Source: Favolaschia claudopus (Eukaryota; Basidiomycota; Agaricomycetes; Agaricales; Mycenaceae). Taken from it: a stretch of DNA of 64,000 nt. This document shows, in pieces, positions 19,001 to 50,544 of this stretch. The stretch's first letter is position 1; every line of letters starts with the position of its first letter. The notes under the pieces are model-generated. The model was given only the letters and a program-made list of their open reading frames with translations. It ran no database searches and was not told the origin of the DNA. The stretch spans positions 310,001-374,000 of the forward strand of contig JAWWNJ010000044.1 of NCBI GenBank assembly GCA_037176885.1, read 5' to 3'. The translations under genes were made by a program, and so were the position numbers.

Positions 19001-19805
19001 CGGCTACGACGAGTACGACTACGAACGGGAGGGGCGAGTTCAAGAGGGCTACGAGTGCGAAACCGAGACGTGAGAGTAGCGCCGACTTTGGGCCCGCGCC
19101 GATGATGGATGATGATGATGATGGGGGAGGGTCTCGAGTATGTATTCCGCCTTCATTTATGGATTTTGGTTATTGTATGCTGACGGCCGGCAGTTTGACT
19201 ACATGGCTAACGACGCGTCGGAGCACCACTTTGATTCGGACGACGAGGACGACGATGGCGGGGGGTGGTTGTCGCAATCTACATTTTCATTGGGGCAACC
19301 GCCAGTGTCGAGTCGGCATATGCAAGGATCGGAGAGACGGCCGCTTGGTGCTGCTGGATTTGATGTAAGTATATGTACGACTGGCGGGCCAAAGAGTTTC
19401 CTCAACATTCGTTCACAGGACGTATTTACGCCGGGTGCGGAAGCCTCGCGGTCTATAGCGGCTGATCCCTTTGACGATGTAAGTCTCGCCTCTGTTGCTC
19501 ATACTCTCACTGACAAGTATACCGTTGTATCGTAGGACGGGTTTGGTCCCTTCTCCGATGCCGCCGCCGCAAACGGCTCCGATCCCTTCACCTTCTCCTC
19601 ATCATTCTCAGACGAGATGGAGGACACGGCTTTTGACAGTTTCGCGGATTTCGGAGAGTTCAATAGCCCGCCAGCTGACGGAGAGTTGACGCCTACCGCC
19701 GGTAGCTGGACATTTACGAGTGGTTCGAGCCCGTCACCTTCTGACGATGCTGCTTCAGAACATTCTGATCCACAGAGCCCCGAGACAGAAAAACGTATGC
19801 CTTGA
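16039..19805 (+). CDS. SAPS-domain regulatory subunit of Sit4/PP6-type phosphatase
   Basis: Scaffold subunit that binds the Sit4/PP6 catalytic phosphatase and steers it to substrates in cell-cycle entry and nutrient signalling (family role). The start is MFWR, joined through a 55-nt GC-AG intron (16050-16104) to FGFHNASAIDSLLDKEDVSV, the classic SAPS N-terminus. Then come ILDEDDLLQECKAQNTRLID, MVMASHFAKINAVFL, VVERLLCHIETPSFVDLLVR and the C-terminal SAPS part (FEFPWNNFLHSAVYDFIH, PKSVRLGFMGHLTLIAEDV). An acidic Ser/Pro-rich loop of some 200 residues (about 17720-18270) interrupts the domain. The tail is acidic and Gly-rich with FGPFSDAAA and FDSFADFGEF repeats, as in other fungi. At least eight short introns. 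Stop at 19803-19805. Confidence 0.9.
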
Positions 19806-28211: not shown

Positions 28212-28218
28212 TTGAAAA
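28212..28218. repeat. Left target-site duplication TTGAAAA
   Basis: Seven bases immediately before the left end (GGCAAAATAG) of copy 1. Identical to the seven bases after the right end of copy 3 at 48601-48607, as expected for a transposon target-site duplication. Confidence 0.75.
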
Positions 28219-28243
28219 GGCAAAATAGCGATGTTGTGGGCCA
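28219..28243 (+). repeat. Left terminal inverted repeat, copy 1
   Basis: 25 bases pairing with 34981-35005 at 18 of 25 positions. Equivalents are at 35012-35036 and 41812-41836. The outer GGC and inner GTGGGCCA are perfect matches. Confidence 0.8.
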
Positions 28244-28879
28244 CAGGGGCTTGAAAAAATAAAAATCGAAAAAGGAAGGAGGGAGGAAAGAGAAAGAGAG
28301 AATTTGAGGCTCACCTTAGTTTGAGCTCCAGTTTTCGGCAGAGAACATTCCTGATGATAGACCCATCCGCCACGCCTGTAAATCCTCGGGAAAACGCGTC
28401 AACGTGTCGGTTTGACAAGAACAGGATAATGGGGAGCACTTGCCGTTTTCGAATAAATTTTGCGGATTTTGCCGTGCATCTCGTGCTGGGAAAGAATAGC
28501 GACCGTCCAGAAAAGGTTTATTCGGCGGCCCGGCCCATTGCGTATGCACGCATCAGCCAAAGGATGTGACGATGTAACATTTGTCACATCCACTGTTTTC
28601 GACCACTCAAGATCGTATCCGGCGTATCGACCTATACTAGCGGAAGAATGAGTGTGGGTGCTGGCAACGCCCCTTCTCTTACCTTCTCCTCACTCTTCTC
28701 ACTCTTCTCCCTCTCTGATTCTTGTCAACGACTCGGCAATTTACTACGCTCAAAGCACTTCAAGATTGTATTCTCAAATCACCTAAAGGCCTAGAAATCT
28801 GCCAATTCATCTATCTTCAGAACCTCCGGAGGCCTTGAATCAGCTACTCTCACCCCCATTCAAACATGTTTAGGAAAGA
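28244..28879. other. Transposon left non-coding region, CT-rich promoter-like
   Basis: This part of copy 1 (repeated in copies 2 and 3) has no well supported gene. It contains the 9-bp inverted repeat at 28562-28591. A strongly CT-rich run at about 28671-28725 (cttctcactcttctccctct) is followed by caacgactcgg, the layout of a fungal core promoter reading rightward. A short leftward open frame (28399-28549) exists, but it is altered by a one-base difference among copies (gcgtcaacg in copy 1, gcgtccaacg in copies 2 and 3). Confidence 0.4.
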
Positions 28880-29806
28880 ATGAGATTGATAATCCATCGT
28901 GAGTTTTCGTCATTCAATTTCTTCGTCTTTCCTTTCGATTCATCTTCATGAATCTTCAAGCTGTTTCTTCATTAATACACTCTTGTAGCTGCATTATTAC
29001 GCTATACCATACCCATCCCACTCCATCCGCAACACGCAAGACGACCAGGCCGGTGCTGGCGCGGTCCCTCACGCAGCCTCGGGCTCACCGCTGTACACTC
29101 GCACGTCGTTCTCGACGCTACCACTTCCTCTTTGCACCGGCATCCGTCTCCGACTTCCCGCTGCTGCCACCGCCCCCACTTCGCTCATCAACCCCAACCA
29201 AATCTCGACGCCGCGTTTGTCGCAACGCACGCTCCTCGCTCGACCTCTGTCTCTCCACCCCCACGCCGCGTCGACGCCGCTATACCGCCATTGGCACGCC
29301 CTCAAACAAATGACACCACAGATGCGATGCCGCCGCTGGTCTCCACCTGCTGCTGTTGTACGTGCCGCATTCGCAAGCTGTCGATACCGCGGCCCTACCC
29401 CGTTCATGCGCGGCCTTGCCCCCAATCCCATCACCCTCTGCACCGACTTGCGCCGTCGCTCCGCACGATCCCGACGCACTCGCATCCATCGACACCGTTG
29501 GTTGCCGACGTCCCGCCGCTCCCCACTACTCCCCTTGTCGCCATCGACGCATCCGGATGGTGTCGACACTGCGCTCGATGCTGCTGTCGTTTCCCGCCCA
29601 CTCCAGCTGTCGTCCCCGCCGTACCTTCCTGCTTCCTCCTTCATCTCTTACTGTTGTATCTGGCTTACACCCGCCCCCGTCTCGTTTTGCATATACATCC
29701 TCTCTATATCTACCTGAGCGTCAAAAACTACATGAATATGATTGATATCTACTATAAGTTTGTACGAAAACGTGTATGTACTATACGAAATATATGCTTT
29801 CATTAA
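28880..29806 (+). CDS. Possible second transposon gene, Pro/Cys/His-rich protein (copy 1)
   Basis: A tentative two-exon model reading rightward: ATG at 28880, 19-base exon (MRLIIH), GT-AG intron 28899-28988, then an open frame to TAA at 29804-29806, 278 residues. The stop overlaps the stop of the transposase gene on the other strand by two bases. The product is rich in Pro, Arg, His and Cys (for example STCCCCTCRIRK) with a hydrophobic segment near the end, and matches nothing I know. The CT-rich promoter-like run upstream supports it. Against it: the sequence is C-rich and low in complexity, and other frames are also open. The equivalent in copy 2 is 35674-36600; in copy 3 (from 42474) three one-base indels break it. 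Confidence 0.25.
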
Positions 29807-32800
29807 ACAAATGTTAAAAGAGTCTGCCCTTGAGCTTTCTCAAGCCCAAGGTGAACCCGAGCCGTTCGATCGAGCTCAACATCGCGCGCAGGGATACAAC
29901 GACGTTGATCCTTTGCAGTTGCCTTGCGCCCCACGCAAACCAAGAGGGACTTTTCGTTACAATCTTGGCATGCATTCTGGCACCAATACCAGCGCCCTTT
30001 ACCCCTGCAGTTTGCATCAGCGCAGCGGGGGCATTGACGAACAGCACGTTTCTTTGATTCGGCCGGTGCAGGCATGGTCTCGTTGACTCGTTGGATGCTC
30101 AGACTTGTAGTTGCAACTGCTGCGGCTTCCGAGATATTGTTCTGTACAGCAAATTGTTGCGTGCGTGAAGCGGAAGGGAACGAGTTCGAAGGAATACTAT
30201 GGGGAGGTATTGTAATCAACGCAACGAGGTCAATTGTGCATCTGAACTCACTGTGCAATGCTATTAAAGCCACTAGTGACTTGATGTTTGACGGGGGGAC
30301 CTGACCGAGCATTCACGATCTTCTCAGCTCGTTTGGAATCTTGCAGTTTTTGTTCTAGAGGTTTGATCTTTCCGCGTGCGTCGGAGCAGCTCTGTCGGAT
30401 GTTGGCTGAATCCTTGTAGCCGCCGTTGAAATAAGCGGTGAGATGCTCTTCGAGCTTGATACTCAATTTAGAGAAAAGAAAGTCCGGAACAGATAAAATT
30501 CACTTACCTTATAATAACAATCCTCGCGCGGCTCCACCTCGCGATTATAGATCAACGTAGCTTCGGTTGACATTGCGGTCTTGCACTTCTGAAAAGCGGC
30601 CGATGTTTGCATGAGATGTTCAAACAATAAAACCTCTGAGACCCCAGAGACGGGTAGAAGGGCCTTCCGCGTCCCCTGCATTCGAGCGAGGTACCGCTGC
30701 TTCTGTTTCGAGTCGGCTTCTTCGTTATAGGGCTGGATTCCAACCGGCTCGCAAACTGCTCTTGGAATCTTGATTATTCCGACCGATTGTTCAGTTGGTT
30801 GATACAGGTTGCCGTTGATCCACGTCAAAGGAAGCGGGGAAATTCCATACCTCTCCGCGAGAGTAATTTCCAGTTCTTGAATGCTGTTTGACAGCCAGAT
30901 AGAGTCGTGGCCTGCATATTTCTTGCCCGTGGAATTGAAATGACCAACCTGTGTACCGATTAGATTAAATAAAACCTGGTAAGGCTCGGATTAACTTACA
31001 TGGAGGTTGTGGCGTAATACGAAATCAAGCAGACAGGCGACCATATGTCGAACGGAAGCGGCATGGGAAGGGAGTTTGGCCAGCAGATGGGTGTGGACAC
31101 CACCTTCAACCATGTTCGTACCTCGAACACAACGATAAATTGGCAGCCCAGCTGCCTTCATGTCGAACCCGATGCAATAGTAAAGCTGCACGCCAGGAGG
31201 ATCAGAAACAAAGCCGTTTTTGATCAACTCCAGAATGTTTTTAGCGACCTTCCATGCAGCAGAGTTGAATAGCGGGAGTTTGGTCTTACTATCGACAAGC
31301 GGGCCCCAAGTCATGAAGACTGCGTGAACCATTGGATAAAGATCTTCGGGTGGGGGAATAGTCCGACGACAATGCCGCCACAGCCATTTGGGGTGAAAGC
31401 GAAGCATATCTTGCCAAGTGACATTCTTGGTTTTAAGATAGGCTTCAATTTGAGCCTTGTCGGCGGGATGGGGTATCAGCAACGCATCGCGCAAAGCGCG
31501 AGAAAATGGCACCCGCAATCCGTGCGTGCGAGAGATGTAAATCATGTTAAAAACATGAAACACATCTTTGAGTACTCTACTTCGCACAAGCAGCGCGTAA
31601 GTAGCAAGCACGGCAAATGGAATTTCACCAAGGACGGAGGCACCCTCGGCTGCGCTGTTCGGGTCCTTGTCGGGGGAATGGAAACTGTCATCCGAGCCGT
31701 TGATGGTTTCCGAGTCATCTTCGAGTCCATCTAGGGCCTGCAATTCGTCGCCGAGACCAACAAGATCAGAGCGTGAGTCCTCGCTCTCACCCTCGGGTTC
31801 CAAGATCGCGGAAGAAGGAGTTGGTGCATGAAGAACAGGGATAGTGGAAGGCTGGGATGGGTGAGAGGTCGAAAGAGAGTTGTGATTGACCCCAGGTAAG
31901 ACACGGACATGACTTCGATGAGCGAGAATATCGAACGGAGGGTTGCCATAGGTTTTGAGAGAACGATTTTTGTCACTTTGTCCAATAGCGGCGCCAGGAA
32001 TTAAAACTTCGCGCACAGTAACAACAGTCCGTGTTGAGGTCAAGTTGACCCCGTTAAAAACACCCAAGCCAGCAGCTGCGGATATGACCCCGCGAGCTGC
32101 AACTTTCTTATTGTCGTCGGTGAGGAGAAGCACCGAAGTCCCAGGGCCTGTATTTGACTGCATCGCAACTGGAAGTGGTGTCTGTTGTATCTTTCGATAA
32201 AGAACCAGTGCCACATGCGCATCCCGCGCAGCATACTGCTGCTGGATTGTAGTCAGGTCGGAATCCGACCAGTTGCTGCTGATGCGTTCGCTGTAATGCT
32301 GAGGGTAGCACTGATTGAGGAGAGCTGCGACAAGGTCAACAAGAGACATATTTGCGTTCGGGATGAGAAACCGATCTTTTGCGAAGTTTCCGAGATCAAG
32401 AGCGCCCGAAAATGAGGCAGGAGGCTGAGCGCATGCCGTAGCAAGCCGGCGTAGGTCTGCATTCACGCTCCGACCTGCTTTAATTACTCGAGGTTCGCGA
32501 AGCAGGTTTAGAAGCTCGAATGGCAAGACCTGCTGCTTCAACATTTCTCCTATCTAAATGATTGTGAGTTGAAGAAAAAACCGCGACATAAAAATGAAGC
32601 GCGGAATTATACACACCTGAAGAACATAAACTCTATCTTTGTACGCAATCTGCAGGACTGCGGGTGGCCCACGCTGAGCCAATCGACCGTGTGGAGTCAT
32701 ATCAATGTTCCACTCGGAGCCAAAACCAATTACAATATAGCTGCCAGCGGTGCGAGGCATGTCATCCAAAATGCTACGCATAACATTGTTGATGGTAGTT

Positions 32801-34809
32801 GTGTCGTTGAGAAGGGATGGCTGGATGACGGACTCTGGGTCTACAAAGAGCGGAAATTCAGAGTGCTTCTGAACCGGCGTAACTTTGTCGAGAAGAGACG
32901 TAAATATTTTTTCGAGCATTGGTTTGTCAGACATGTTGTCTGTGTAAAAGACTTCCGGCTGGTCATGCCCGTAGACAGTGAGATCATCAGCAAGGCGTCG
33001 TAGCGCATCCTCGTATTGCGAATGGGATTTTGTTGCAACAAATACGCAAACTTTGATTTCGCCTTTCTCGTTTGTGACGGTAAGGAGGGCGGTGAAGATC
33101 GGTACGCCGTCAATTTTGAAGACATGTTTAGCGAGCTACATGAGAGCGATGAGGGTGAGGTTATTGATTATTAGAAGCTGCCGTACCTTGTGGCTATGAT
33201 CAATGGCACAAATCCGAGCAGACAGCATCGCCGTGTGTTGGTTGAGAACATCCCGGTAGGATTCGATGAAGTTGTCGTAAATGTCACGAAGCCATTGACC
33301 GCTAGGTGTAAAGCCGTGGAATCCAGAGGCTGAACGGTCTTCGAATGGCAAAAAAGGTTCGTAAGTTGCTCCCGGAAGATTGACTTGGGCAACTTTTGTC
33401 CGCAAATATTGAAGTCGAATTTCATCATAACGACGGAGGTGCTGCATTCGGAAGATATCTGCGACCTCTTCGGCACCCATCCCATGTTGAAAGCATGAGC
33501 GAATAACCCCGAATGCTCGAGTCGATAATCCGCTTCTCCACGTGAGATGAGCAGGAAATTCTGCTGCAAGTTCAAGAGGCAAGCGCTCCAAGACTCGTTG
33601 ATCCCAAGAGCGGAATCGAGAGCCACATCCGCCCGAGCGCTTTTTGCATGCGTACACCCAACCAATAATCCAGAAGCAGGCGTCAAGATCAACAATCCTG
33701 CGCGGCCGCTTCAGAACACCATTGCGTGTGAGATGATGTGAATTGCAGTCGGGGCAACGGACTTGTTTAGCGCCGACAAGATCAAGTGGATCCCATATAA
33801 AGAAATCGGGAAGAAAGAGGCTGGTCGGCGTTACATTGAGGCTATGAAGAGGGAACCAAACCGACTTGCGTGGAAGCCAGAAGGTGCCGGCAATGTAATG
33901 TCGGGATTTCTTCTTCATTGCTTTCTCCGTATCATACTTGAGTTCTTCAAGAATCTCGTTCAGACGGTTTGTGAACCATGCCGGAAACGGCCTGCGCTTT
34001 GATTTACGCTGTGTCCCCTGGTCTTGCGGCTCCCCATCGTTAAGATCGTCATCATCGTCACCCTCATCTTCCTCGCCAATGCCCTCCACGTGAAACGGCT
34101 GCGACCCAGGTGATTCGTCGACATCTGTTATGAAATCTACCGTATTGGGTGCTCCTGATGAAGGGAGTGATGTTGAGAATGGATTGTTCGTTGTAGGTTC
34201 CGCATTCACACGGGAAATAACACTGCGAGGATTATCGTGGGGCGGAGCTGAATGTATTGTTGTCGGATTTTGCGAAGGCGCATAGAGTGTGGGAATGGGA
34301 ATGGGAGGTATAGCATTGGGTGGGGGAGAATTGTACATTGACGCGGTAGATAATGTGCTCATGCTCTCCGAAGCAGAGGTAGAGCTGCAAGACACCGGTG
34401 CACGAGAACGGTTTCCCGATCCTCGCGTAAGCTTCAAAAAAATCAGTTATGAATAGGCAGTGAGAGCAGAAATGTCACGCACCAAGTTTGAAAGCGGTTG
34501 AATGAATGAAGCTCTCCCTCCTTCCACGGAGGAAGTGTTGATGTCCGGCAAGCCGACGATGGGTACATCAGCGTCTGCGGCAGTCTGAGAAGCAACGCGT
34601 GCTTTTTTCTGTGGTGGTTGGGAAGAAGGAGCCGCGGCAGGCACAGGTGCTGGGGCAGGCACCTCGGAGTGGGCAGCCTCAGATGCCTTGCGCTTGTTCT
34701 TCGAGCCCTTTGGGCGACCACGACCGCGTTTCGGCGCTGTTTCCGGAGGCTCGGAAGGCGGCGGGGGCTCCTCGGGATGTTGGTAATGATGAAATACTGT
34801 TCCGAGCAT
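29803..34809 (-). CDS. DDE transposase with inserted 3'-5' exonuclease domain (copy 1)
   Basis: Seven exons joined in frame: 34483-34809, 33187-34431, 32617-33135, 31000-32553, 30508-30948, 30252-30454, 29803-30196, giving 1560 residues. The first five exons are all in phase 0. Domains in order: AT-hook KRGRGRPKGSKNKRK (about 27-41); Ser/Pro-rich and acidic linker; zinc-ribbon region with CPDC (335-338) and Cys 371/378, resembling the basidiomycete DUF6729 family (recalled, not searched); first catalytic-type Asp in ICAIDHSHK (520); second in VFYTDN (590); a WRN/RNase D-like exonuclease domain (about 655-820) with EW (665), NADLRR (Asp 730) and YAARDAH (Tyr 804, Asp 808); RGTNMVEGGVHTHL with the likely catalytic Glu 1180; and a C-terminal knuckle CPRCADANCRGKGRWYWC (from 1485). 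Exonuclease motif I has Gly 663 where Asp is normal. The transposase reading is from domain logic, not experiment. Confidence 0.85.
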
Positions 34810-34980
34810 GTTCGGGAGATGAGGAAGCAAAGCTATAGGTGAGAATAGAAGGAGGTGCCCGGCTACTCAGCGAAGAGACAGACAAGAGCGAGACGACAGG
34901 CAAAAGCCGGAGGCAGAGCTGATTGATTGATTATCATGATTGATTGACCATATATAGAATATTCGCTATTACCGAGCTAT

Positions 34981-35005
34981 TGGCCCACATCACAAGTAAT
35001 TAGCC
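34981..35005 (-). repeat. Right terminal inverted repeat, copy 1
   Basis: Starts TGGCCCAC and ends AATTAGCC. Inverted match to 28219-28243. Equivalents are at 41781-41805 and 48576-48600. Confidence 0.8.
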
Positions 35006-35011
35006 TTGAAA
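35006..35011. repeat. Copy 1/copy 2 junction TTGAAA
   Basis: Six bases separate the right end of copy 1 from the left end of copy 2. They equal the outer 7-bp duplication minus one A, so neighbouring copies share a single target-derived spacer. Confidence 0.8.
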
Positions 35012-38000
35012 GGCAAAATAGCGATGTTGTGGGCCACAGGGGCTTGAAAAAATAAAAATCGAAAAAGGAAGGAGGGAGGAAAGAGAAAGAGAGAATTTGA
35101 GGCTCACCTTAGTTTGAGCTCCAGTTTTCGGCAGAGAACATTCCTGATGATAGACCCATCCGCCACGCCTGTAAATCCTCGGGAAAACGCGTCCAACGTG
35201 TCGGTTTGACAAGAACAGGATAATGGGGAGCACTTGCCGTTTTCGAATAAATTTTGCGGATTTTGCCGTGCATCTCGTGCTGGGAAAGAATAGCGACCGT
35301 CCAGAAAAGGTTTATTCGGCGGCCCGGCCCATTGCGTATGCACGCATCAGCCAAAGGATGTGACGATGTAACATTTGTCACATCCACTGTTTTCGACCAC
35401 TCAAGATCGTATCCGGCGTATCGACCTATACTAGCGGAAGAATGAGTGTGGGTGCTGGCAACGCCCCTTCTCTTACCTTCTCCTCACTCTTCTCACTCTT
35501 CTCCCTCTCTGATTCTTGTCAACGACTCGGCAATTTACTACGCTCAAAGCACTTCAAGATTGTATTCTCAAATCACCTAAAGGCCTAGAAATCTGCCAAT
35601 TCATCTATCTTCAGAACCTCCGGAGGCCTTGAATCAGCTACTCTCACCCCCATTCAAACATGTTTAGGAAAGAATGAGATTGATAATCCATCGTGAGTTT
35701 TCGTCATTCAATTTCTTCGTCTTTCCTTTCGATTCATCTTCATGAATCTTCAAGCTGTTTCTTCATTAATACACTCTTGTAGCTGCATTATTACGCTATA
35801 CCATACCCATCCCACTCCATCCGCAACACGCAAGACGACCAGGCCGGTGCTGGCGCGGTCCCTCACGCAGCCTCGGGCTCACCGCTGTACACTCGCACGT
35901 CGTTCTCGACGCTACCACTTCCTCTTTGCACCGGCATCCGTCTCCGACTTCCCGCTGCTGCCACCGCCCCCACTTCGCTCATCAACCCCAACCAAATCTC
36001 GACGCCGCGTTTGTCGCAACGCACGCTCCTCGCTCGACCTCTGTCTCTCCACCCCCACGCCGCGTCGACGCCGCTATACCGCCATTGGCACGCCCTCAAA
36101 CAAATGACACCACAGATGCGATGCCGCCGCTGGTCTCCACCTGCTGCTGTTGTACGTGCCGCATTCGCAAGCTGTCGATACCGCGGCCCTACCCCGTTCA
36201 TGCGCGGCCTTGCCCCCAATCCCATCACCCTCTGCACCGACTTGCGCCGTCGCTCCGCACGATCCCGACGCACTCGCATCCATCGACACCGTTGGTTGCC
36301 GACGTCCCGCCGCTCCCCACTACTCCCCTTGTCGCCATCGACGCATCCGGATGGTGTCGACACTGCGCTCGATGCTGCTGTCGTTTCCCGCCCACTCCAG
36401 CTGTCGTCCCCGCCGTACCTTCCTGCTTCCTCCTTCATCTCTTACTGTTGTATCTGGCTTACACCCGCCCCCGTCTCGTTTTGCATATACATCCTCTCTA
36501 TATCTACCTGAGCGTCAAAAACTACATGAATATGATTGATATCTACTATAAGTTTGTACGAAAACGTGTATGTACTATACGAAATATATGCTTTCATTAA
36601 ACAAATGTTAAAAGAGTCTGCCCTTGAGCTTTCTCAAGCCCAAGGTGAACCCGAGCCGTTCGATCGAGCTCAACATCGCGCGCAGGGATACAACGACGTT
36701 GATCCTTTGCAGTTGCCTTGCGCCCCACGCAAACCAAGAGGGACTTTTCGTTACAATCTTGGCATGCATTCTGGCACCAATACCAGCGCCCTTTACCCCT
36801 GCAGTTTGCATCAGCGCAGCGGGGGCATTGACGAACAGCACGTTTCTTTGATTCGGCCGGTGCAGGCATGGTCTCGTTGACTCGTTGGATGCTCAGACTT
36901 GTAGTTGCAACTGCTGCGGCTTCCGAGATATTGTTCTGTACAGCAAATTGTTGCGTGCGTGAAGCGGAAGGGAACGAGTTCGAAGGAATACTATGGGGAG
37001 GTATTGTAATCAACGCAACGAGGTCAATTGTGCATCTGAACTCACTGTGCAATGCTATTAAAGCCACTAGTGACTTGATGTTTGACGGGGGGACCTGACC
37101 GAGCATTCACGATCTTCTCAGCTCGTTTGGAATCTTGCAGTTTTTGTTCTAGAGGTTTGATCTTTCCGCGTGCGTCGGAGCAGCTCTGTCGGATGTTGGC
37201 TGAATCCTTGTAGCCGCCGTTGAAATAAGCGGTGAGATGCTCTTCGAGCTTGATACTCAATTTAGAGAAAAGAAAGTCCGGAACAGATAAAATTCACTTA
37301 CCTTATAATAACAATCCTCGCGCGGCTCCACCTCGCGATTATAGATCAACGTAGCTTCGGTTGACATTGCGGTCTTGCACTTCTGAAAAGCGGCCGATGT
37401 TTGCATGAGATGTTCAAACAATAAAACCTCTGAGACCCCAGAGACGGGTAGAAGGGCCTTCCGCGTCCCCTGCATTCGAGCGAGGTACCGCTGCTTCTGT
37501 TTCGAGTCGGCTTCTTCGTTATAGGGCTGGATTCCAACCGGCTCGCAAACTGCTCTTGGAATCTTGATTATTCCGACCGATTGTTCAGTTGGTTGATACA
37601 GGTTGCCGTTGATCCACGTCAAAGGAAGCGGGGAAATTCCATACCTCTCCGCGAGAGTAATTTCCAGTTCTTGAATGCTGTTTGACAGCCAGATAGAGTC
37701 GTGGCCTGCATATTTCTTGCCCGTGGAATTGAAATGACCAACCTGTGTACCGATTAGATTAAATAAAACCTGGTAAGGCTCGGATTAACTTACATGGAGG
37801 TTGTGGCGTAATACGAAATCAAGCAGACAGGCGACCATATGTCGAACGGAAGCGGCATGGGAAGGGAGTTTGGCCAGCAGATGGGTGTGGACACCACCTT
37901 CAACCATGTTCGTACCTCGAACACAACGATAAATTGGCAGCCCAGCTGCCTTCATGTCGAACCCGATGCAATAGTAAAGCTGCACGCCAGGAGGATCAGA

Positions 38001-41000
38001 AACAAAGCCGTTTTTGATCAACTCCAGAATGTTTTTAGCGACCTTCCATGCAGCAGAGTTGAATAGCGGGAGTTTGGTCTTACTATCGACAAGCGGGCCC
38101 CAAGTCATGAAGACTGCGTGAACCATTGGATAAAGATCTTCGGGTGGGGGAATAGTCCGACGACAATGCCGCCACAGCCATTTGGGGTGAAAGCGAAGCA
38201 TATCTTGCCAAGTGACATTCTTGGTTTTAAGATAGGCTTCAATTTGAGCCTTGTCGGCGGGATGGGGTATCAGCAACGCATCGCGCAAAGCGCGAGAAAA
38301 TGGCACCCGCAATCCGTGCGTGCGAGAGATGTAAATCATGTTAAAAACATGAAACACATCTTTGAGTACTCTACTTCGCACAAGCAGCGCGTAAGTAGCA
38401 AGCACGGCAAATGGAATTTCACCAAGGACGGAGGCACCCTCGGCTGCGCTGTTCGGGTCCTTGTCGGGGGAATGGAAACTGTCATCCGAGCCGTTGATGG
38501 TTTCCGAGTCATCTTCGAGTCCATCTAGGGCCTGCAATTCGTCGCCGAGACCAACAAGATCAGAGCGTGAGTCCTCGCTCTCACCCTCGGGTTCCAAGAT
38601 CGCGGAAGAAGGAGTTGGTGCATGAAGAACAGGGATAGTGGAAGGCTGGGATGGGTGAGAGGTCGAAAGAGAGTTGTGATTGACCCCAGGTAAGACACGG
38701 ACATGACTTCGATGAGCGAGAATATCGAACGGAGGGTTGCCATAGGTTTTGAGAGAAACGATTTTTGTCACTTTGTCCAATAGCGGCGCCAGGAATTAAA
38801 ACTTCGCGCACAGTAACAACAGTCCGTGTGAGGTCAAGTTGACCCCGTTAAAAACACCCAAGCCAGCAGCTGCGGATATGACCCCGCGAGCTGCAACTTT
38901 CTTATTGTCGTCGGTGAGGAGAAGCACCGAAGTCCCAGGGCCTGTATTTGACTGCATCGCAACTGGAAGTGGTGTCTGTTGTATCTTTCGATAAAGAACC
39001 AGTGCCACATGCGCATCCCGCGCAGCATACTGCTGCTGGATTGTAGTCAGGTCGGAATCCGACCAGTTGCTGCTGATGCGTTCGCTGTAATGCTGAGGGT
39101 AGCACTGATTGAGGAGAGCTGCGACAAGGTCAACAAGAGACATATTTGCGTTCGGGATGAGAAACCGATCTTTTGCGAAGTTTCCGAGATCAAGAGCGCC
39201 CGAAAATGAGGCAGGAGGCTGAGCGCATGCCGTAGCAAGCCGGCGTAGGTCTGCATTCACGCTCCGACCTGCTTTAATTACTCGAGGTTCGCGAAGCAGG
39301 TTTAGAAGCTCGAATGGCAAGACCTGCTGCTTCAACATTTCTCCTATCTAAATGATTGTGAGTTGAAGAAAAAACCGCGACATAAAAAATGAAGCGCGGA
39401 ATTATACACACCTGAAGAACATAAACTCTATCTTTGTACGCAATCTGCAGGACTGCGGGTGGCCCACGCTGAGCCAATCGACCGTGTGGAGTCATATCAA
39501 TGTTCCACTCGGAGCCAAAACCAATTACAATATAGCTGCCAGCGGTGCGAGGCATGTCATCCAAAATGCTACGCATAACATTGTTGATGGTAGTTGTGTC
39601 GTTGAGAAGGGATGGCTGGATGACGGACTCTGGGTCTACAAAGAGCGGAAATTCAGAGTGCTTCTGAACCGGCGTAACTTTGTCGAGAAGAGACGTAAAT
39701 ATTTTTTCGAGCATTGGTTTGTCAGACATGTTGTCTGTGTAAAAGACTTCCGGCTGGTCATGCCCGTAGACAGTGAGATCATCAGCAAGGCGTCGTAGCG
39801 CATCCTCGTATTGCGAATGGGATTTTGTTGCAACAAATACGCAAACTTTGATTTCGCCTTTCTCGTTTGTGACGGTAAGGAGGGCGGTGAAGATCGGTAC
39901 GCCGTCAATTTGAAGACATGTTTAGCGAGCTACATGAGAGCGATGAGGGTGAGGTTATTGATTATTAGAAGCTGCCGTACCTTGTGGCTATGATCAATGG
40001 CACAAATCCGAGCAGACAGCATCGCCGTGTGTTGGTTGAGAACATCCCGGTAGGATTCGATGAAGTTGTCGTAAATGTCACGAAGCCATTGACCGCTAGG
40101 TGTAAAGCCGTGGAATCCAGAGGCTGAACGGTCTTCGAATGGCAAAAAAGGTTCGTAAGTTGCTCCCGGAAGATTGACTTGGGCAACTTTTGTCCGCAAA
40201 TATTGAAGTCGAATTTCATCATAACGACGGAGGTGCTGCATTCGGAAGATATCTGCGACCTCTTCGGCACCCATCCCATGTTGAAAGCATGAGCGAATAA
40301 CCCCGAATGCTCGAGTCGATAATCCGCTTCTCCACGTGAGATGAGCAGGAAATTCTGCTGCAAGTTCAAGAGGCAAGCGCTCCAAGACTCGTTGATCCCA
40401 AGAGCGGAATCGAGAGCCACATCCGCCCGAGCGCTTTTTGCATGCGTACACCCAACCAATAATCCAGAAGCAGGCGTCAAGATCAACAATCCTGCGCGGC
40501 CGCTTCAGAACACCATTGCGTGTGAGATGATGTGAATTGCAGTCGGGGCAAACGGACTTGTTTAGCGCCGACAAGATCAAGTGGATCCCATATAAAGAAA
40601 TCGGGAAGAAAGGAGGCTGGTCGGGGCGTTACATTGAGGCTATGAAGAGGGAACAAACCGACTTGCGTGGAAGCCAGAAGGTGCCGGCAATGTAATGTCG
40701 GGATTTCTTCTTCATTGCTTTCTCCCGTATCATACTTGAGTTCTTCAAGAATCTCGTTCAGACGGTTTGTGAACCATGCCGGAAACGGCCTGCGCTTTGA
40801 TTTAACGCTGTGTCCCCTGGTCTTGCCGGCTCCCCATCGTTAAGATCGTCATCATCGTCACCCTCATCTTCCTCGCCAATGCCCTCCACGTGAAACGGCT
40901 GCGACCCAGGTGATTCGTCGACATCTGTTATGAAATCTACCGTATTGGGTGCTCCTGATGAAGGGAGTGATGTTGAGAATGGATTGTTCGTTGTAGGTTC

Positions 41001-41805
41001 CGCATTCACACGGGAAATAACACTGCGAGGATTATCGTGGGGCGGAGCTGAATGTATTGTTGTCGGATTTTGCGAAGGCGCATAGAGTGTGGGAATGGGA
41101 ATGGGAGGTATAGCATTGGGTGGGGGAGAATTGTACATTGACGCGGTAGATAATGTGCTCATGCTCTCCGAAGCAGAGGTAGAGCTGCAAGACACCGGTG
41201 CACGAGAACGGTTTCCCGATCCTCGCGTAAGCTTCAAAAAAATCAGTTATGAATAGGCAGTGAGAGCAGAAATGTCACGCACCAAGTTTGAAAGCGGTTG
41301 AATGAATGAAGCTCTCCCTCCTTCCACGGAGGAAGTGTTGATGTCCGGCAAGCCGACGATGGGTACATCAGCGTCTGCGGCAGTCTGAGAAGCAACGCGT
41401 GCTTTTTTCTGTGGTGGTTGGGAAGAAGGAGCCGCGGCAGGCACAGGTGCTGGGGCAGGCACCTCGGAGTGGGCAGCCTCAGATGCCTTGCGCTTGTTCT
41501 TCGAGCCCTTTGGGCGACCACGACCGCGTTTCGGCGCTGTTTCCGGAGGCTCGGAAGGCGGCGGGGGCTCCTCGGGATGTTGGTAATGATGAAATACTGT
41601 TCCGAGCATGTTCGGGAGATGAGGAAGCAAAGCTATAGGTGAGAATAGAAGGAGGTGCCCGGCTACTCAGCGAAGAGACAGACAAGAGCGAGACGACAGG
41701 CAAAAGCCGGAGGCAGAGCTGATTGATTGATTATCATGATTGATTGACCATATATAGAATATTCGCTATTACCGAGCTATTGGCCCACATCACAAGTAAT
41801 TAGCC
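35012..41805 (-). mobile_element. DDE/exonuclease DNA transposon, copy 2 (frameshifted)
   Basis: 6794 bases, same ends as copy 1. I find no substitution against copy 1, only one- or two-base insertions and deletions, mostly in homopolymers. Six of them lie in 40550-40830. This pattern suggests uncorrected long-read errors rather than natural decay. Confidence 0.88.
36597..41609 (-). pseudogene. Transposase/exonuclease gene, copy 2, disrupted as written
   Basis: Same gene as in copy 1, but as written the frame is broken. The zinc-ribbon exon suffers a cluster of indels at 40552-40830 (gcaaacgg, gaaaggagg, tcggggcg, gggaacaaac, ctcccgta, tttaacgc, ttgccggc). The exonuclease/second-Asp exon has indels near 39387 and 39909. 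The large exon 4 has two offsetting changes near 38757 and 38829. Each is one base (one is two bases) and sits mostly in a short homopolymer. If these are sequencing errors the true copy is intact; if real, this copy depends on its neighbours for transposase. Confidence 0.8.
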
Positions 41806-41811
41806 TTGAAA
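41806..41811. repeat. Copy 2/copy 3 junction TTGAAA
   Basis: Identical to the first junction at 35006-35011, one A shorter than the outer duplication. Confidence 0.8.
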
Positions 41812-44800
41812 GGCAAAATAGCGATGTTGTGGGCCACAGGGGCTTGAAAAAATAAAAATCGAAAAAGGAAGGAGGGAGGAAAGAGAAAGAGAGAATTTGA
41901 GGCTCACCTTAGTTTGAGCTCCAGTTTTCGGCAGAGAACATTCCTGATGATAGACCCATCCGCCACGCCTGTAAATCCTCGGGAAAACGCGTCCAACGTG
42001 TCGGTTTGACAAGAACAGGATAATGGGGAGCACTTGCCGTTTTCGAATAAATTTTGCGGATTTTGCCGTGCATCTCGTGCTGGGAAAGAATAGCGACCGT
42101 CCAGAAAAGGTTTATTCGGCGGCCCGGCCCATTGCGTATGCACGCATCAGCCAAAGGATGTGACGATGTAACATTTGTCACATCCACTGTTTTCGACCAC
42201 TCAAGATCGTATCCGGCGTATCGACCTATACTAGCGGAAGAATGAGTGTGGGTGCTGGCAACGCCCCTTCTCTTACCTTCTCCTCACTCTTCTCACTCTT
42301 CTCCCTCTCTGATTCTTGTCAACGACTCGGCAATTTACTACGCTCAAAGCACTTCAAGATTGTATTCTCAAATCACCTAAAGGCCTAGAAATCTGCCAAT
42401 TCATCTATCTTCAGAACCTCCGGAGGCCTTGAATCAGCTACTCTCACCCCCATTCAAACATGTTTAGGAAAGAATGAGATTGATAATCCATCGTGAGTTT
42501 TCGTCATTCAATTTCTTCGTCTTTCCTTTCGATTCATCTTCATGAATCTTCAAGCTGTTTCTTCATTAATACACTCTTGTAGCTGCATTATTACGCTATA
42601 CCATACCCATCCCACTCCATCCGCAACACGCAAGACGACCAGGCCGGTGCTGGCGCGGTCCCTCACGCAGCCTCGGGCTCACCGCTGTACACTCGCACGT
42701 CGTTCTCGACGCTACCACTTCCTCTTTGCACCGGCATCCGTCTCCGACTTCCCGCTGCTGCCACCCGCCCCCACTTCGCTCATCAACCCCAACCAAATCT
42801 CGACGCCGCGTTTGTCGCAACGCACGCTCCTCGCTCGACCTCTGTCTCTCCACCCCCACGCCGCGTCGACGCCGCTATACCGCCATTGGCACGCCCTCAA
42901 ACAAATGACACCACAGATGCGATGCCGCCGCTGGTCTCCACCTGCTGCTGTTGTACGTGCCGCATTCGCAAGCTGTCGATACCCGCGGCCCTACCCCGTT
43001 CATGCGCGGCCTTGCCCCCAATCCCATCACCCTCTGCACCGACTTGCGCCGTCGCTCCGCACGATCCCGACGCACTCGCATCCATCGACACCGTGGTTGC
43101 CGACGTCCCGCCGCTCCCCACTACTCCCCTTGTCGCCATCGACGCATCCGGATGGTGTCGACACTGCGCTCGATGCTGCTGTCGTTTCCCGCCCACTCCA
43201 GCTGTCGTCCCCGCCGTACCTTCCTGCTTCCTCCTTCATCTCTTACTGTTGTATCTGGCTTACACCCGCCCCCGTCTCGTTTTGCATATACATCCTCTCT
43301 ATATCTACCTGAGCGTCAAAAACTACATGAATATGATTGATATCTACTATAAGTTTGTACGAAAACGTGTATGTACTATACGAAATATATGCTTTCATTA
43401 AACAAATGTTAAAAGAGTCTGCCCTTGAGCTTTCTCAAGCCCAAGGTGAACCCGAGCCGTTCGATCGAGCTCAACATCGCGCGCAGGGATACAACGACGT
43501 TGATCCTTTGCAGTTGCCTTGCGCCCCACGCAAACCAAGAGGGACTTTTCGTTACAATCTTGGCATGCATTCTGGCACCAATACCAGCGCCCTTTACCCC
43601 TGCAGTTTGCATCAGCGCAGCGGGGGCATTGACGAACAGCACGTTTCTTTGATTCGGCCGGTGCAGGCATGGTCTCGTTGACTCGTTGGATGCTCAGACT
43701 TGTAGTTGCAACTGCTGCGGCTTCCGAGATATTGTTCTGTACAGCAAATTGTTGCGTGCGTGAAGCGGAAGGGAACGAGTTCGAAGGAATACTATGGGGA
43801 GGTATTGTAATCAACGCAACGAGGTCAATTGTGCATCTGAACTCACTGTGCAATGCTATTAAAGCCACTAGTGACTTGATGTTTGACGGGGGGACCTGAC
43901 CGAGCATTCACGATCTTCTCAGCTCGTTTGGAATCTTGCAGTTTTTGTTCTAGAGGTTTGATCTTTCCGCGTGCGTCGGAGCAGCTCTGTCGGATGTTGG
44001 CTGAATCCTTGTAGCCGCCGTTGAAATAAGCGGTGAGATGCTCTTCGAGCTTGATACTCAATTTAGAGAAAAGAAAGTCCGGAACAGATAAAATTCACTT
44101 ACCTTATAATAACAATCCTCGCGCGGCTCCACCTCGCGATTATAGATCAACGTAGCTTCGGTTGACATTGCGGTCTTGCACTTCTGAAAAGCGGCCGATG
44201 TTTGCATGAGATGTTCAAACAATAAAACCTCTGAGACCCCAGAGACGGGTAGAAGGGCCTTCCGCGTCCCCTGCATTCGAGCGAGGTACCGCTGCTTCTG
44301 TTTCGAGTCGGCTTCTTCGTTATAGGGCTGGATTCCAACCGGCTCGCAAACTGCTCTTGGAATCTTGATTATTCCGACCGATTGTTCAGTTGGTTGATAC
44401 AGGTTGCCGTTGATCCACGTCAAAGGAAGCGGGGAAATTCCATACCTCTCCGCGAGAGTAATTTCCAGTTCTTGAATGCTGTTTGACAGCCAGATAGAGT
44501 CGTGGCCTGCATATTTCTTGCCCGTGGAATTGAAATGACCAACCTGTGTACCGATTAGATTAAATAAAACCTGGTAAGGCTCGGATTAACTTACATGGAG
44601 GTTGTGGCGTAATACGAAATCAAGCAGACAGGCGACCATATGTCGAACGGAAGCGGCATGGGAAGGGAGTTTGGCCAGCAGATGGGTGTGGACACCACCT
44701 TCAACCATGTTCGTACCTCGAACACAACGATAAATTGGCAGCCCAGCTGCCTTCATGTCGAACCCGATGCAATAGTAAAGCTGCACGCCAGGAGGATCAG

Positions 44801-47800
44801 AAACAAAGCCGTTTTTGATCAACTCCAGAATGTTTTTAGCGACCTTCCATGCAGCAGAGTTGAATAGCGGGAGTTTGGTCTTACTATCGACAAGCGGGCC
44901 CCAAGTCATGAAGACTGCGTGAACCATTGGATAAAGATCTTCGGGTGGGGGAATAGTCCGACGACAATGCCGCCACAGCCATTTGGGGTGAAAGCGAAGC
45001 ATATCTTGCCAAGTGACATTCTTGGTTTTAAGATAGGCTTCAATTTGAGCCTTGTCGGCGGGATGGGGTATCAGCAACGCATCGCGCAAAGCGCGAGAAA
45101 ATGGCACCCGCAATCCGTGCGTGCGAGAGATGTAAATCATGTTAAAAACATGAAACACATCTTTGAGTACTCTACTTCGCACAAGCAGCGCGTAAGTAGC
45201 AAGCACGGCAAATGGAATTTCACCAAGGACGGAGGCACCCTCGGCTGCGCTGTTCGGGTCCTTGTCGGGGGAATGGAAACTGTCATCCGAGCCGTTGATG
45301 GTTTCCGAGTCATCTTCGAGTCCATCTAGGGCCTGCAATTCGTCGCCGAGACCAACAAGATCAGAGCGTGAGTCCTCGCTCTCACCCTCGGGTTCCAAGA
45401 TCGCGGAAGAAGGAGTCGGTGCATGAAGAACAGGGATAGTGGAAGGCTGGGATGGGTGAGAGGTCGAAAGAGAGTTGTGATTGACCCCAGGTAAGACACG
45501 GACATGACTTCGATGAGCGAGAATATCGAACGGAGGGTTGCCATAGGTTTTGAGAGAACGATTTTTGTCACTTTGTCCAATAGCGGCGCCAGGAATTAAA
45601 ACTTCGCGCACAGTAACAACAGTCCGTGTTGAGGTCAAGTTGACCCCGTTAAAAACACCCAAGCCAGCAGCTGCGGATATGACCCCGCGAGCTGCAACTT
45701 TCTTATTGTCGTCGGTGAGGAGAAGCACCGAAGTCCCAGGGCCTGTATTTGACTGCATCGCAACTGGAAGTGGTGTCTGTTGTATCTTTCGATAAAGAAC
45801 CAGTGCCACATGCGCATCCCGCGCAGCATACTGCTGCTGGATTGTAGTCAGGTCGGAATCCGACCAGTTGCTGCTGATGCGTTCGCTGTAATGCTGAGGG
45901 TAGCACTGATTGAGGAGAGCTGCGACAAGGTCAACAAGAGACATATTTGCGTTCGGGATGAGAAACCGATCTTTTGCGAAGTTTCCGAGATCAAGAGCGC
46001 CCGAAAATGAGGCAGGAGGCTGAGCGCATGCCGTAGCAAGCCGGCGTAGGTCTGCATTCACGCTCCGACCTGCTTTAATTACTCGAGGTTCGCGAAGCAG
46101 GTTTAGAAGCTCGAATGGCAAGACCTGCTGCTTCAACATTTCTCCTATCTAAATGATTGTGAGTTGAAGAAAAAACCGCGACATAAAAATGAAGCGCGGA
46201 ATTATACACACCTGAAGAACATAAACTCTATCTTTGTACGCAATCTGCAGGACTGCGGGTGGCCCACGCTGAGCCAATCGACCGTGTGGAGTCATATCAA
46301 TGTTCCACTCGGAGCCAAAACCAATTACAATATAGCTGCCAGCGGTGCGAGGCATGTCATCCAAAATGCTACGCATAACATTGTTGATGGTAGTTGTGTC
46401 GTTGAGAAGGGATGGCTGGATGACGGACTCTGGGTCTACAAAGAGCGGAAATTCAGAGTGCTTCTGAACCGGCGTAACTTTGTCGAGAAGAGACGTAAAT
46501 ATTTTTTCGAGCATTGGTTTGTCAGACATGTTGTCTGTGTAAAAGACTTCCGGCTGGTCATGCCCGTAGACAGTGAGATCATCAGCAAGGCGTCGTAGCG
46601 CATCCTCGTATTGCGAATGGGATTTTGTTGCAACAAATACGCAAACTTTGATTTCGCCTTTCTCGTTTGTGACGGTAAGGAGGGCGGTGAAGATCGGTAC
46701 GCCGTCAATTTTGAAGACATGTTTAGCGAGCTACATGAGAGCGATGAGGGTGAGGTTATTGATTATTAGAAGCTGCCGTACCTTGTGGCTATGATCAATG
46801 GCACAAATCCGAGCAGACAGCATCGCCGTGTGTTGGTTGAGAACATCCCGGTAGGATTCGATGAAGTTGTCGTAAATGTCACGAAGCCATTGACCGCTAG
46901 GTGTAAAGCCGTGGAATCCAGAGGCTGAACGGTCTTCGAATGGCAAAAAAGGTTCGTAAGTTGCTCCCGGAAGATTGACTTGGGCAACTTTTGTCCGCAA
47001 ATATTGAAGTCGAATTTCATCATAACGACGGAGGTGCTGCATTCGGAAGATATCTGCGACCTCTTCGGCACCCATCCCATGTTGAAAGCATGAGCGAATA
47101 ACCCCGAATGCTCGAGTCGATAATCCGCTTCTCCACGTGAGATGAGCAGGAAATTCTGCTGCAAGTTCAAGAGGCAAGCGCTCCAAGACTCGTTGATCCC
47201 AAGAGCGGAATCGAGAGCCACATCCGCCCGAGCGCTTTTTGCATGCGTACACCCAACCAATAATCCAGAAGCAGGCGTCAAGATCAACAATCCTGCGCGG
47301 CCGCTTCAGAACACCATTGCGTGTGAGATGATGTGAATTGCAGTCGGGGCAACGGACTTGTTTAGCGCCGACAAGATCAAGTGGATCCCATATAAAGAAA
47401 TCGGGAAGAAAGAGGCTGGTCGGCGTTACATTGAGGCTATGAAGAGGGAACCAAACCGACTTGCGTGGAAGCCAGAAGGTGCCGGCAATGTAATGTCGGG
47501 ATTTCTTCTTCATTGCTTTCTCCGTATCATACTTGAGTTCTTCAAGAATCTCGTTCAGACGGTTTGTGAACCATGCCGGAAACGGCCTGCGCTTTGATTT
47601 ACGCTGTGTCCCCTGGTCTTGCGGCTCCCCATCGTTAAGATCGTCATCATCGTCACCCTCATCTTCCTCGCCAATGCCCTCCACGTGAAACGGCTGCGAC
47701 CCAGGTGATTCGTCGACATCTGTTATGAAATCTACCGTATTGGGTGCTCCTGATGAAGGGAGTGATGTTGAGAATGGATTGTTCGTTGTAGGTTCCGCAT

Positions 47801-48600
47801 TCACACGGGAAATAACACTGCGAGGATTATCGTGGGGCGGAGCTGAATGTATTGTTGTCGGATTTTGCGAAGGCGCATAGAGTGTGGGAATGGGAATGGG
47901 AGGTATAGCATTGGGTGGGGGAGAATTGTACATTGACGCGGTAGATAATGTGCTCATGCTCTCCGAAGCAGAGGTAGAGCTGCAAGACACCGGTGCACGA
48001 GAACGGTTTCCCGATCCTCGCGTAAGCTTCAAAAAAATCAGTTATGAATAGGCAGTGAGAGCAGAAATGTCACGCACCAAGTTTGAAAGCGGTTGAATGA
48101 ATGAAGCTCTCCCTCCTTCCACGGAGGAAGTGTTGATGTCCGGCAAGCCGACGATGGGTACATCAGCGTCTGCGGCAGTCTGAGAAGCAACGCGTGCTTT
48201 TTTCTGTGGTGGTTGGGAAGAAGGAGCCGCGGCAGGCACAGGTGCTGGGGCAGGCACCTCGGAGTGGGCAGCCTCAGATGCCTTGCGCTTGTTCTTCGAG
48301 CCCTTTGGGCGACCACGACCGCGTTTCGGCGCTGTTTCCGGAGGCTCGGAAGGCGGCGGGGGCTCCTCGGGATGTTGGTAATGATGAAATACTGTTCCGA
48401 GCATGTTCGGGAGATGAGGAAGCAAAGCTATAGGTGAGAATAGAAGGAGGTGCCCGGCTACTCAGCGAAGAGACAGACAAGAGCGAGACGACAGGCAAAA
48501 GCCGGAGGCAGAGCTGATTGATTGATTATCATGATTGATTGACCATATATAGAATATTCGCTATTACCGAGCTATTGGCCCACATCACAAGTAATTAGCC
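41812..48600 (-). mobile_element. DDE/exonuclease DNA transposon, copy 3 (main gene intact)
   Basis: 6789 bases, same ends as copy 1. It differs from copy 1 by one substitution (C at 45417 versus T at 31822, synonymous in the transposase) and four one-base indels, all in the left 1.3 kb (gcgtccaacg, ccacccgcc, cgatacccgcgg, caccgtggtt), outside the main gene. The tentative rightward gene at the left is broken by three of these. Confidence 0.9.
43398..48404 (-). CDS. DDE transposase with inserted 3'-5' exonuclease domain (copy 3)
   Basis: The seven exons correspond one to one with copy 1 (shifted by 13595 bases) and encode the same 1560-residue protein: the single substitution found, at 45417, leaves the Pro codon in HAPTPSS unchanged. 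ATG at 48404, stop at 43398-43400. All features described for copy 1 are present, including the Asp/Asp/Glu residues, the Gly in place of Asp in exonuclease motif I, and both Cys-rich regions. With copy 1 this means at least two potentially active source genes in the array. Confidence 0.85.
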
Positions 48601-48607
48601 TTGAAAA
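48601..48607. repeat. Right target-site duplication TTGAAAA
   Basis: Seven bases directly after the right end of copy 3, identical to 28212-28218. Confidence 0.75.
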
Positions 48608-48926: not shown

Positions 48927-50544
48927 TCAAAACTTCTGCTTCTTCCTGGCCCGACGCCGTCCTTCCCCGCTCCATGAATCACTCTGAACAGGAGGAGCAC
49001 CAGCAAGCCCGTGCGCTTTCTGCACCGCTTGGAGACATATCTTGTCCGGAACTTTCTCCCAATACAACTCTTCCCTCTTCCCCACAACCAGCTCCATGTC
49101 AACGGCTTTCGACGAGCCTACTTTTCCATTTGACAAACAGCCGGAGTCGTCCAGACCCGTCGCCTGCGCTGTCGAATTATTCGTAAAGTGTTCGACGAGA
49201 TTTTTTGCGTGAGCAGCTCTGGCGAGGCGTATATGGCACTATATTCACTTCAGTAAATTGATTTTCGTGGGTGAAGGGAATTACCGAATTCATGCCCTTG
49301 TTGAAATCGATATAATCTATGGCCTCTTTTGTGTCTACACCTTGAGCAAAGAAATTTCGCAGCGTGGTTTTGTTCGTCTCGGGATGTATATTCCGAACGA
49401 ACACCAGACAATTCGCGGGATATCGCAGATTCTGCGCGGGCTGCACCACAACATCTTCGGCTGGCGGTGCTTCCCGTTCGTGATTCGTCGGTTTTGAACG
49501 GACAGGGAGATTGATGCGCTCCGCATCCCCAATTTCTGCAAGGATACTTGTGCGGTAACTGAGGTACTCCGCATTCAACTGGTCCCAACGAACTTTGGAT
49601 AGGGCGCGGAACCCGAATTTCAACGCTTCGGACGCTGTGGGAGAGTCGTGGTCCTGCGCTTGCCGACTCCAAGGCCAGGCGGTAAGTAACAAGTTGGCAT
49701 CTTCTGCGTTCGCAAATATGACGAGTGCAAAAGACTTGAATTTTGGCTCGGTCCCCGGGGCATCAGTATGATGGGGAGGTACCGAGATTGCTTGTATTCG
49801 TTCGTAGTTTGTGAGCGTCGAATTGTCGACATGAAGCAATTCGAGGAGAAATTTGAGCAAGTGGGGAAATGTTTTGTACTTGATAGGTACATTTTCCTTT
49901 GATTTGGGAAATTACTGATGAGAATTTCAGACGCCAGAAAGATCTCACATACGATATAGAGAGTTCTGCTGTCCCAATCTTCTCGTGAAGCGGGACCTTC
50001 ATCGTGCCAGAACTTTGGTCGGATTTCAAAATTGCCTTGTTTCTTGTCTCTGGAATCCCCGGAAGGTATCGTCATCCGCACATCGACTGCGTCCACCGCG
50101 TGTGCGCGGAGCGCCTTCACGATAGCCATTTCAGAGGCCCCAGAGGCGGATAGTGGAGAAGAGGTGTTCAGGATATAACTAAGCGGGAAAACTGCTAAGC
50201 TCATCAAAATCTATCACGATATTCGCAAGTAAGCTCGACGTACATCCGTCATTTGAAGCATTCTTCCAGTCGATATTTCGCCGTAAATCTGGGTCAGACC
50301 AGAGTTTATACTTCGAGAGCGAGAGAAAGACGAGTATGATGAGGTCCTCGTCAGAGAGCTTCGAAGCTATCTCCGCTTCTGGAACTGGGGTAGGGAGCTC
50401 TGGCGCTTTGCTTTTCCCTTTGATGTCAGCGACGACGCGCTTGTTCTCCGTAGTGGCTGCTCGAGAGGTTGAGGGTGCATTTGTGGTCAGGAATTTCGAG
50501 GATTTGGCTACTTTGCGAGGAACGAAGGCAAAGGGCGCGCTCAT
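48927..50544 (-). CDS. La-related RNA-binding protein, LARP7/Pof8-like
   Basis: Likely binds the 3' end of a structured non-coding RNA such as telomerase RNA or a snRNA, by analogy with LARP7/Pof8. ATG at 50544 gives MSAPFAFVPRKVAKSSKFLT, a basic tail. A La-motif-like segment follows: LSLSKYKLWSDPDLRRNI, then over an intron NDGFFPLSYILNTSSPLSA and SEMAIVKALRAHAVDAVDVR. Next is an RRM starting SRTLYIENVPIKYKTFPHLL (RNP2-type LYIENVP). The C-terminus carries an xRRM-like domain: NCLVFVRNIHPETNKTTLRN, AIDYIDFNKGMN, and KREELYWEKVPDKICLQA, which resembles the terminal helix of LARP7 proteins, then a basic end RRRARKKQKF. About four introns. The subfamily is inference from order and motifs. Confidence 0.7.

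Follow-up and report, generated by a model that had tools for sequence, protein, structure and literature searches.

What kind of element carries a WRN/RNase D-like exonuclease inside the catalytic core of its transposase, and is that exonuclease likely to work? The question is raised by a window of 64,000 nucleotides (the whole stretch of DNA analysed here, to which all coordinates refer) from the basidiomycete Favolaschia claudopus (assembly GCA_037176885.1, contig JAWWNJ010000044.1, positions 310,001 to 374,000), in which an initial annotation made from the letters alone had noticed such an arrangement. We read the locus as three tandem copies of one autonomous DNA transposon. Most probably it is a Dada-type element from a fungal branch that bears the exonuclease, and its exonuclease is probably inactive or weak, because the first catalytic aspartate is glycine (Gly 663) in the clade to which the element belongs. 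We put the probability of this reading at about 85%.

Transposase gene and domain order

The transposase gene of the first copy (29803..34809, minus strand) consists of seven exons (34809-34483, 34431-33187, 33135-32617, 32553-31000, 30948-30508, 30454-30306 and 30241-29803), separated by six predicted introns of 51-64 bp, every one of them GT-AG, and the joined exons encode 1557 residues with a single terminal stop. This predicted gene model bears out the earlier claim of a single protein; the length first given, 1560 residues, results from an alternative acceptor at the last intron. Alignment with relatives places the DDE residues and the exonuclease segment where they had been noted: D520 in CAIDHSHK (33199..33201; this and the following protein features are on the minus strand), D590 in VFYTDN (32938..32940) and E1180 in RGTNMVEGG (31105..31107). 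A further conserved motif, absent from that annotation, is the DxxH of KDVFH (D1027, 31564..31566, with H1030).

In hidden Markov model searches two Pfam families matched above their cut-offs: DUF6729 (PF20499, residues 306-495, 33274..33843, E 3.8e-16), which includes the cysteines C335, C338, C371 and C378, and DNA_pol_A_exo1 (residues 710-821, E 4.4e-7). DUF6729 is a label with no assigned function, and a literature search found no paper using the term. The exonuclease is divided by an intron into a first part (32617..32745), which begins at residue 655, takes up the rest of exon 3 and holds motif I (GFGSEW), and a second part extending to residue 825 (32170..32553), which holds motifs II (NADLRRL) and III (YAARDA); the first was placed by alignment and the second by Pfam and alignment, and the fold of both was assessed through the relative P0080. 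Near the C-terminus lies a cluster of cysteines (residues 1482-1506, 29959..30033), which is likely a zinc knuckle.

Conservation across relatives

A homology search with residues 290-1240 as query scored 7995 candidates and returned 121 proteins at a threshold of E 0.001, the best 120 of the 121 all having E 3.8e-82 or better. Mycena and other mushrooms supply most of the matches listed, of which P0001 from Mycena sanguinolenta is the closest (80% identity). We aligned the window protein with 119 relatives (120 rows, P0120 dropped) and counted residues over the rows having a letter at each position. Asp occupies position 520 in 104 of 106 rows and position 590 in 110 of 112, and Glu occupies position 1180 in 101 of 102; in the DxxH motif Asp 1027 is kept in 112/115 and His 1030 in 111/112. 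Because 121 relatives were found and the three acids are conserved in the aligned rows, the arrangement of motifs is not a product of chance, and we reject that explanation. We likewise reject a division of the exonuclease and DDE parts into two separate proteins, as both Pfam labels occur on one protein in 79 of the 120 relatives listed. The data support a WRN-type exonuclease domain inside a DDE transposase core as one conserved protein.

A second search used a construct lacking the exonuclease, and its best 120 of 188 matches brought the pooled set to 232 proteins. By pattern, 90 of these have both the second Asp and the Glu motif, and in two (P0113 and P0182) the spacing is below 400 residues. 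Neither is a credible exonuclease-less relative: the pattern match in P0113 fell on an LFSDA downstream of the true second Asp, and the gene model of P0182 skips part of the exonuclease and the DxxH region. No credible exonuclease-less fungal relative was thus found among the 232 proteins, which leaves room for such proteins elsewhere. With the divergent P0113 as query, six proteins were recovered, P0113 included, all with fungal names, and NCBIfam applied to three relatives gave exonuclease matches only, below cut-off.

Predicted fold

Models of relatives were used to assess the nesting. The modelled exonuclease of P0080 has the WRN-type DEDDy fold. The P0003 model aligned in VIA to the transposase of ISCth4, which we take to be of the IS256 family, from before the exonuclease to beyond it, so that the match to an IS256/MULE-like DDE transposase fold spans both sides of the insertion. 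The ISCth4 transposase (6xg8, 6xgx, 6xgw; 401 residues in 6xg8_A) differs in having no exonuclease insertion, and the exonuclease domain of WRN (2e6l, 2fbt) differs in preceding a helicase and not being nested in a transposase. Several features of the models count against this picture. The VIA alignment with ISCth4 covers 270 residues, of which the first and last only are printed, with the split over the two halves not given; Foldseek superpositions on ISCth4 are loose (root-mean-square deviation 18.2 for P0003 and 5.7 for P0080); the 50 VIA rows for P0080 are exonuclease-type chains with no transposase among them; and residues 899-902 of the P0003 model, around the catalytic Glu 901, have a predicted local distance difference test score below 50. 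Foldseek against viral structures matched mainly exonucleases and polymerases, and the exonuclease-less P0080 construct had no sequence match in the PDB at E 5.

Taken as models, the folds of relatives fit a nested exonuclease. The part of the initial annotation that placed the exonuclease inside the DDE core is therefore upheld by the P0003-ISCth4 alignment spanning the domain; its view of the architecture as newly notable is not, since an exonuclease in this position of a DDE transposase has been in print since 2013 (PMC3706591).

A three-copy array with defined ends

The gene belongs to an element of about 6.79 kb with defined ends, present in three tandem copies that the initial annotation did not include. 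Copy 1 (28219..35005, 6787 bp) has an intact, open transposase gene; copy 2 (35012..41805, 6794 bp) lies head to tail with it, its gene interrupted by small indels; and copy 3 (41812..48600, 6789 bp), again head to tail, has a gene (48404-43398) that aligns over its full length like that of copy 1. All three are on the minus strand. Both ends of the element start with GGC, and bases 17-25 from each end form a 9-bp subterminal inverted repeat, TGTGGGCCA, found on the plus strand at the left ends (28235..28243, also 35028 and 41828) and on the minus strand at the right ends (34981..34989, also 41781 and 48576). This 9-mer or its complement occurs six times in the window, every time at an element end. 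The same ends can also be scored as a 27-nt inverted repeat that is 74% complementary. In a random control of 100000 pairs of 30-base stretches, 9 pairs reached a 9-base run and 1 reached 19 identities, the values of the ends, a control that tested ends previously picked as matching. The array is flanked by TTGAAAA on the left (28212..28218) and on the right (48601..48607), and the junctions between copies 1 and 2 (35006..35011) and copies 2 and 3 (41806..41811) consist of TTGAAA only. We presume this to be a target-site duplication of 6-7 bp, seen at one site only. Successive insertions into the TTGAAA at its border, or a later tandem amplification, may have produced the array.

As the three copies seen adjoin each other, they might instead represent a tandemly amplified, domesticated host gene and not a mobile element. 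The borders of the unit coincide with matched inverted repeats and with the duplicated TTGAAA(A), and several divergent relatives share a species (for example, Mycena pura accounts for 7 of the 120 listed and Arthromyces matolae for 10), which makes domestication very improbable.

Over the whole unit copy 2 differs from copy 1 by 0 mismatches and 12 gap openings, and the interruption of its gene is either an assembly error or decay. Copy 3 is identical to copy 1 in six of seven exons, with one substitution in exon 4. Long-read assemblies are prone to indels of one or two bases within short runs, and most differences between these near-identical copies are of this sort, as would be expected if the assembly had created the array from a repeated element. 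The private differences between copies and the clean junctions argue against an artefact, as do the tandem Dada insertions described in zebrafish (PMC3706591), and we regard it as unlikely.

Within each element a C-rich stretch (29000-29700) lies past the gene's 3' end and contains plus-strand open reading frames in several frames.

Comparison with Dada transposons

The Dada superfamily was described in 2013 by Kojima and Jurka in PLoS One (PMC3706591), with a DDE transposase distantly related to those of MuDR, hAT, P, Kolobok and IS256. Its hallmarks in that account are the motifs DxxH, CCCC and CCHC, a target-site duplication of 6-7 bp and, in the U6 and U1 families, subterminal inverted repeats, and a DEDDy exonuclease lies between the second Asp and DxxH in Dada elements of Laccaria bicolor and Ectocarpus siliculosus. 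The window element has the DDE triad, DxxH after the second Asp, an N-terminal CCCC, a 6-7 bp duplication and short subterminal repeats, and it shares with the Laccaria and Ectocarpus elements the position of the exonuclease, the triad, the N-terminal CCCC and the presence of introns; its length falls in the Dada range of 4.7-11 kb. The spacing between the first and second Asp is 70 residues (68 in Dada), and the four cysteines span 43 residues as in Dada-U6_DR, with different inner spacings. Of the 162 rows inspected, 90 show a CxxC..C..C pattern, so by this measure the N-terminal CCCC is not universal. The arrangement of the array resembles that of zebrafish Dada-U1, for which the same paper describes tandem insertions, in one case separated by the duplicated target alone.

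Three points weigh against a Dada assignment. At the third place of the C-terminal cluster, where the CCHC of Dada has His, the window protein has Cys (a CCHC-like C-terminal pattern appears in 4 of 70 rows examined). All Dada elements with clearly definable termini sit in a small RNA gene, according to PMC3706591, in which the names of the Laccaria entries carry no target, and Rfam and tRNA searches of the window and flanks recognised no small RNA gene at the target. No Rfam family reached its gathering score in the 64-kb window; the flanks were scanned apart and not joined, the left giving a single match under the threshold (bxd_5, E 0.35, at 15.8 bits where 50 are required), which we take as chance, and the right no match at E 2. 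No tRNA was found in the window or in the joined empty site. Finally, the comparison with Dada was made through its published description. Because of the C-terminal Cys and the lack of a recognisable small RNA target, we call the element very probably of Dada type and do not claim proven membership.

The same nested architecture could belong to a separate MULE/IS256-like fungal superfamily that acquired its exonuclease independently. Besides the reliance on a published description and the small RNA target that the searches did not find, this is favoured by the structural match to an IS256-family enzyme and by weak matches to the MULE family PF10551: with the exonuclease-less P0080 construct (E 0.0063, below cut-off; the window construct gave none) and in one of seven whole relatives (P0090, E 0.077, below the Pfam cut-off). 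Dada is itself related to MuDR and IS256 and has the exonuclease at the same place in the agaric Laccaria (PMC3706591), and the Asp spacing, cysteine span, 6-7 bp duplication and 9-bp subterminal repeats all fit Dada, so that we consider a non-Dada family improbable. Other literature adds little: the main text of a later paper on fish Dada (PMC8869645) contains neither the word "exonuclease" nor the word "tandem", a paper on Ectocarpus from 2025 (PMC12477816) names a single Dada family without the word "exonuclease", and a search for "KDZ transposase" together with "exonuclease" found nothing.

Loss of a catalytic residue in the exonuclease

The window protein does not have the full catalytic set of a WRN-type DEDDy exonuclease (DEDD plus Tyr): it keeps E665, D730, Y804 and D808, and has Gly at position 663 (32719..32721), unlike the WRN exonuclease (2e6l, 2fbt), which retains the motif I Asp. 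The Gly codon is common to all three copies. Of the 116 aligned rows with a letter here, 108 have Asp, seven Gly and one Asn. A quick tree was built on 114 of the 120 rows, with the Shimodaira-Hasegawa-like approximate likelihood ratio test (SH-aLRT) as its only support measure and the exonuclease columns included. In it the window protein, P0001, P0002, P0003, P0030 and P0031, which make up six of the seven Gly rows, form one clade with an SH-aLRT value of 100; the relatives in this clade come from M. sanguinolenta, M. metata, M. pura, M. vitilis and M. epipterygia. The seventh, P0116, is poorly aligned at this position and sits on a long branch. A label-shuffle control on the tree, in which the Gly label needed 2 changes and each of 500 shuffles scored as low, was uninformative because just nine rows carried a label. 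Outside the Gly clade, P0027 has the same Asp changed to Asn, a substitution that hints at repeated loss.

The first Asp of DEDDy exonucleases binds a catalytic metal. By analogy with such enzymes the exonuclease of the Gly clade is probably inactive or weak, and the earlier suggestion that it could trim ends is weakened for this element. Activity despite the missing Asp, for instance through a shifted metal ligand, with trimming of transposon or target 3' ends, would be in keeping with the retention of E665, D730, Y804 and D808 and with a mean identity of 85% for the exonuclease domain over the 15 pairs in the clade. Set against it are the conservation of Asp at 663 in most rows and its role as metal ligand, the further change of the motif III Tyr and Asp in the clade member P0002 (QFAAREAY), and a somewhat faster divergence of the exonuclease: the ratio of exonuclease to DDE divergence has a median of 2.08 in the Gly clade (10 of 15 pairs, five with P0030 failing the coverage filter) and 1.57 in sisters (94 of 105 pairs from 15 hand-chosen rows), with overlapping ranges. 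Together with the 85% identity, these ratios suggest mild relaxation at most, with no collapse of the domain, and we consider continued activity unlikely, if less so than the alternatives discussed above. Gly 663 also sets the element apart from Dada as published, in which all four DEDD residues are kept (PMC3706591). No exonuclease-deficient lineage is reported in the titles and abstract beginnings searched, a survey that was not aimed at this point and to which Repbase and most subscription papers are external.

Genomic neighbourhood

An open stretch at 49180-49911 (minus strand), which starts some 0.6 kb past the right-hand edge of the array, encodes an xRRM domain (PF19977, E 7e-17) and may belong to a gene for a La/LARP7-like RNA-binding protein. 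Host genes identified by Pfam encode a Cid1-type poly(A) polymerase (5629-6480, minus strand), an OPT oligopeptide transporter (10477-11741, plus strand) and a SAPS (SIT4-associated) protein (16812-19365, plus strand).

Proposed mechanism and significance

We propose that the element is mobile and that its 1557-residue transposase would bind the element ends through the DUF6729/cysteine region and the C-terminal cysteine cluster. The split DDE core (D520, D590 and E1180, with D1027xxH1030) would then cut and join DNA, and integration with a 6-7 bp stagger would leave the target-site duplication. Between the second Asp and DxxH the protein carries the inserted WRN-type DEDDy domain. In most relatives an exonuclease with its catalytic residues may process 3' ends, following Kojima and Jurka; in the clade of the window element the domain probably does not act on 3' ends and may be kept for the fold, for DNA-end binding or by inertia.

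Why a transposase core should contain a 3'-5' exonuclease has been addressed in the 2013 paper as a proposal only, namely that it processes cleaved 3' ends (PMC3706591). The family of transposases bearing this exonuclease is widespread in mushrooms, and models of relatives fit the nested fold. With the architecture itself already described, the remaining interest is the structural support for nesting and a natural exonuclease-deficient branch, which, standing beside intact sisters, offers a direct comparison for the role of the domain. We suggest tentatively, at slightly worse than even odds, that a Dada-type lineage spread through several Mycena after losing the exonuclease Asp, exonucleolytic end processing being dispensable for transposition and the domain being kept in another role, such as holding DNA ends or stability of the core. 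If this is true, the lineage would be a natural series of exonuclease-minus mutants.
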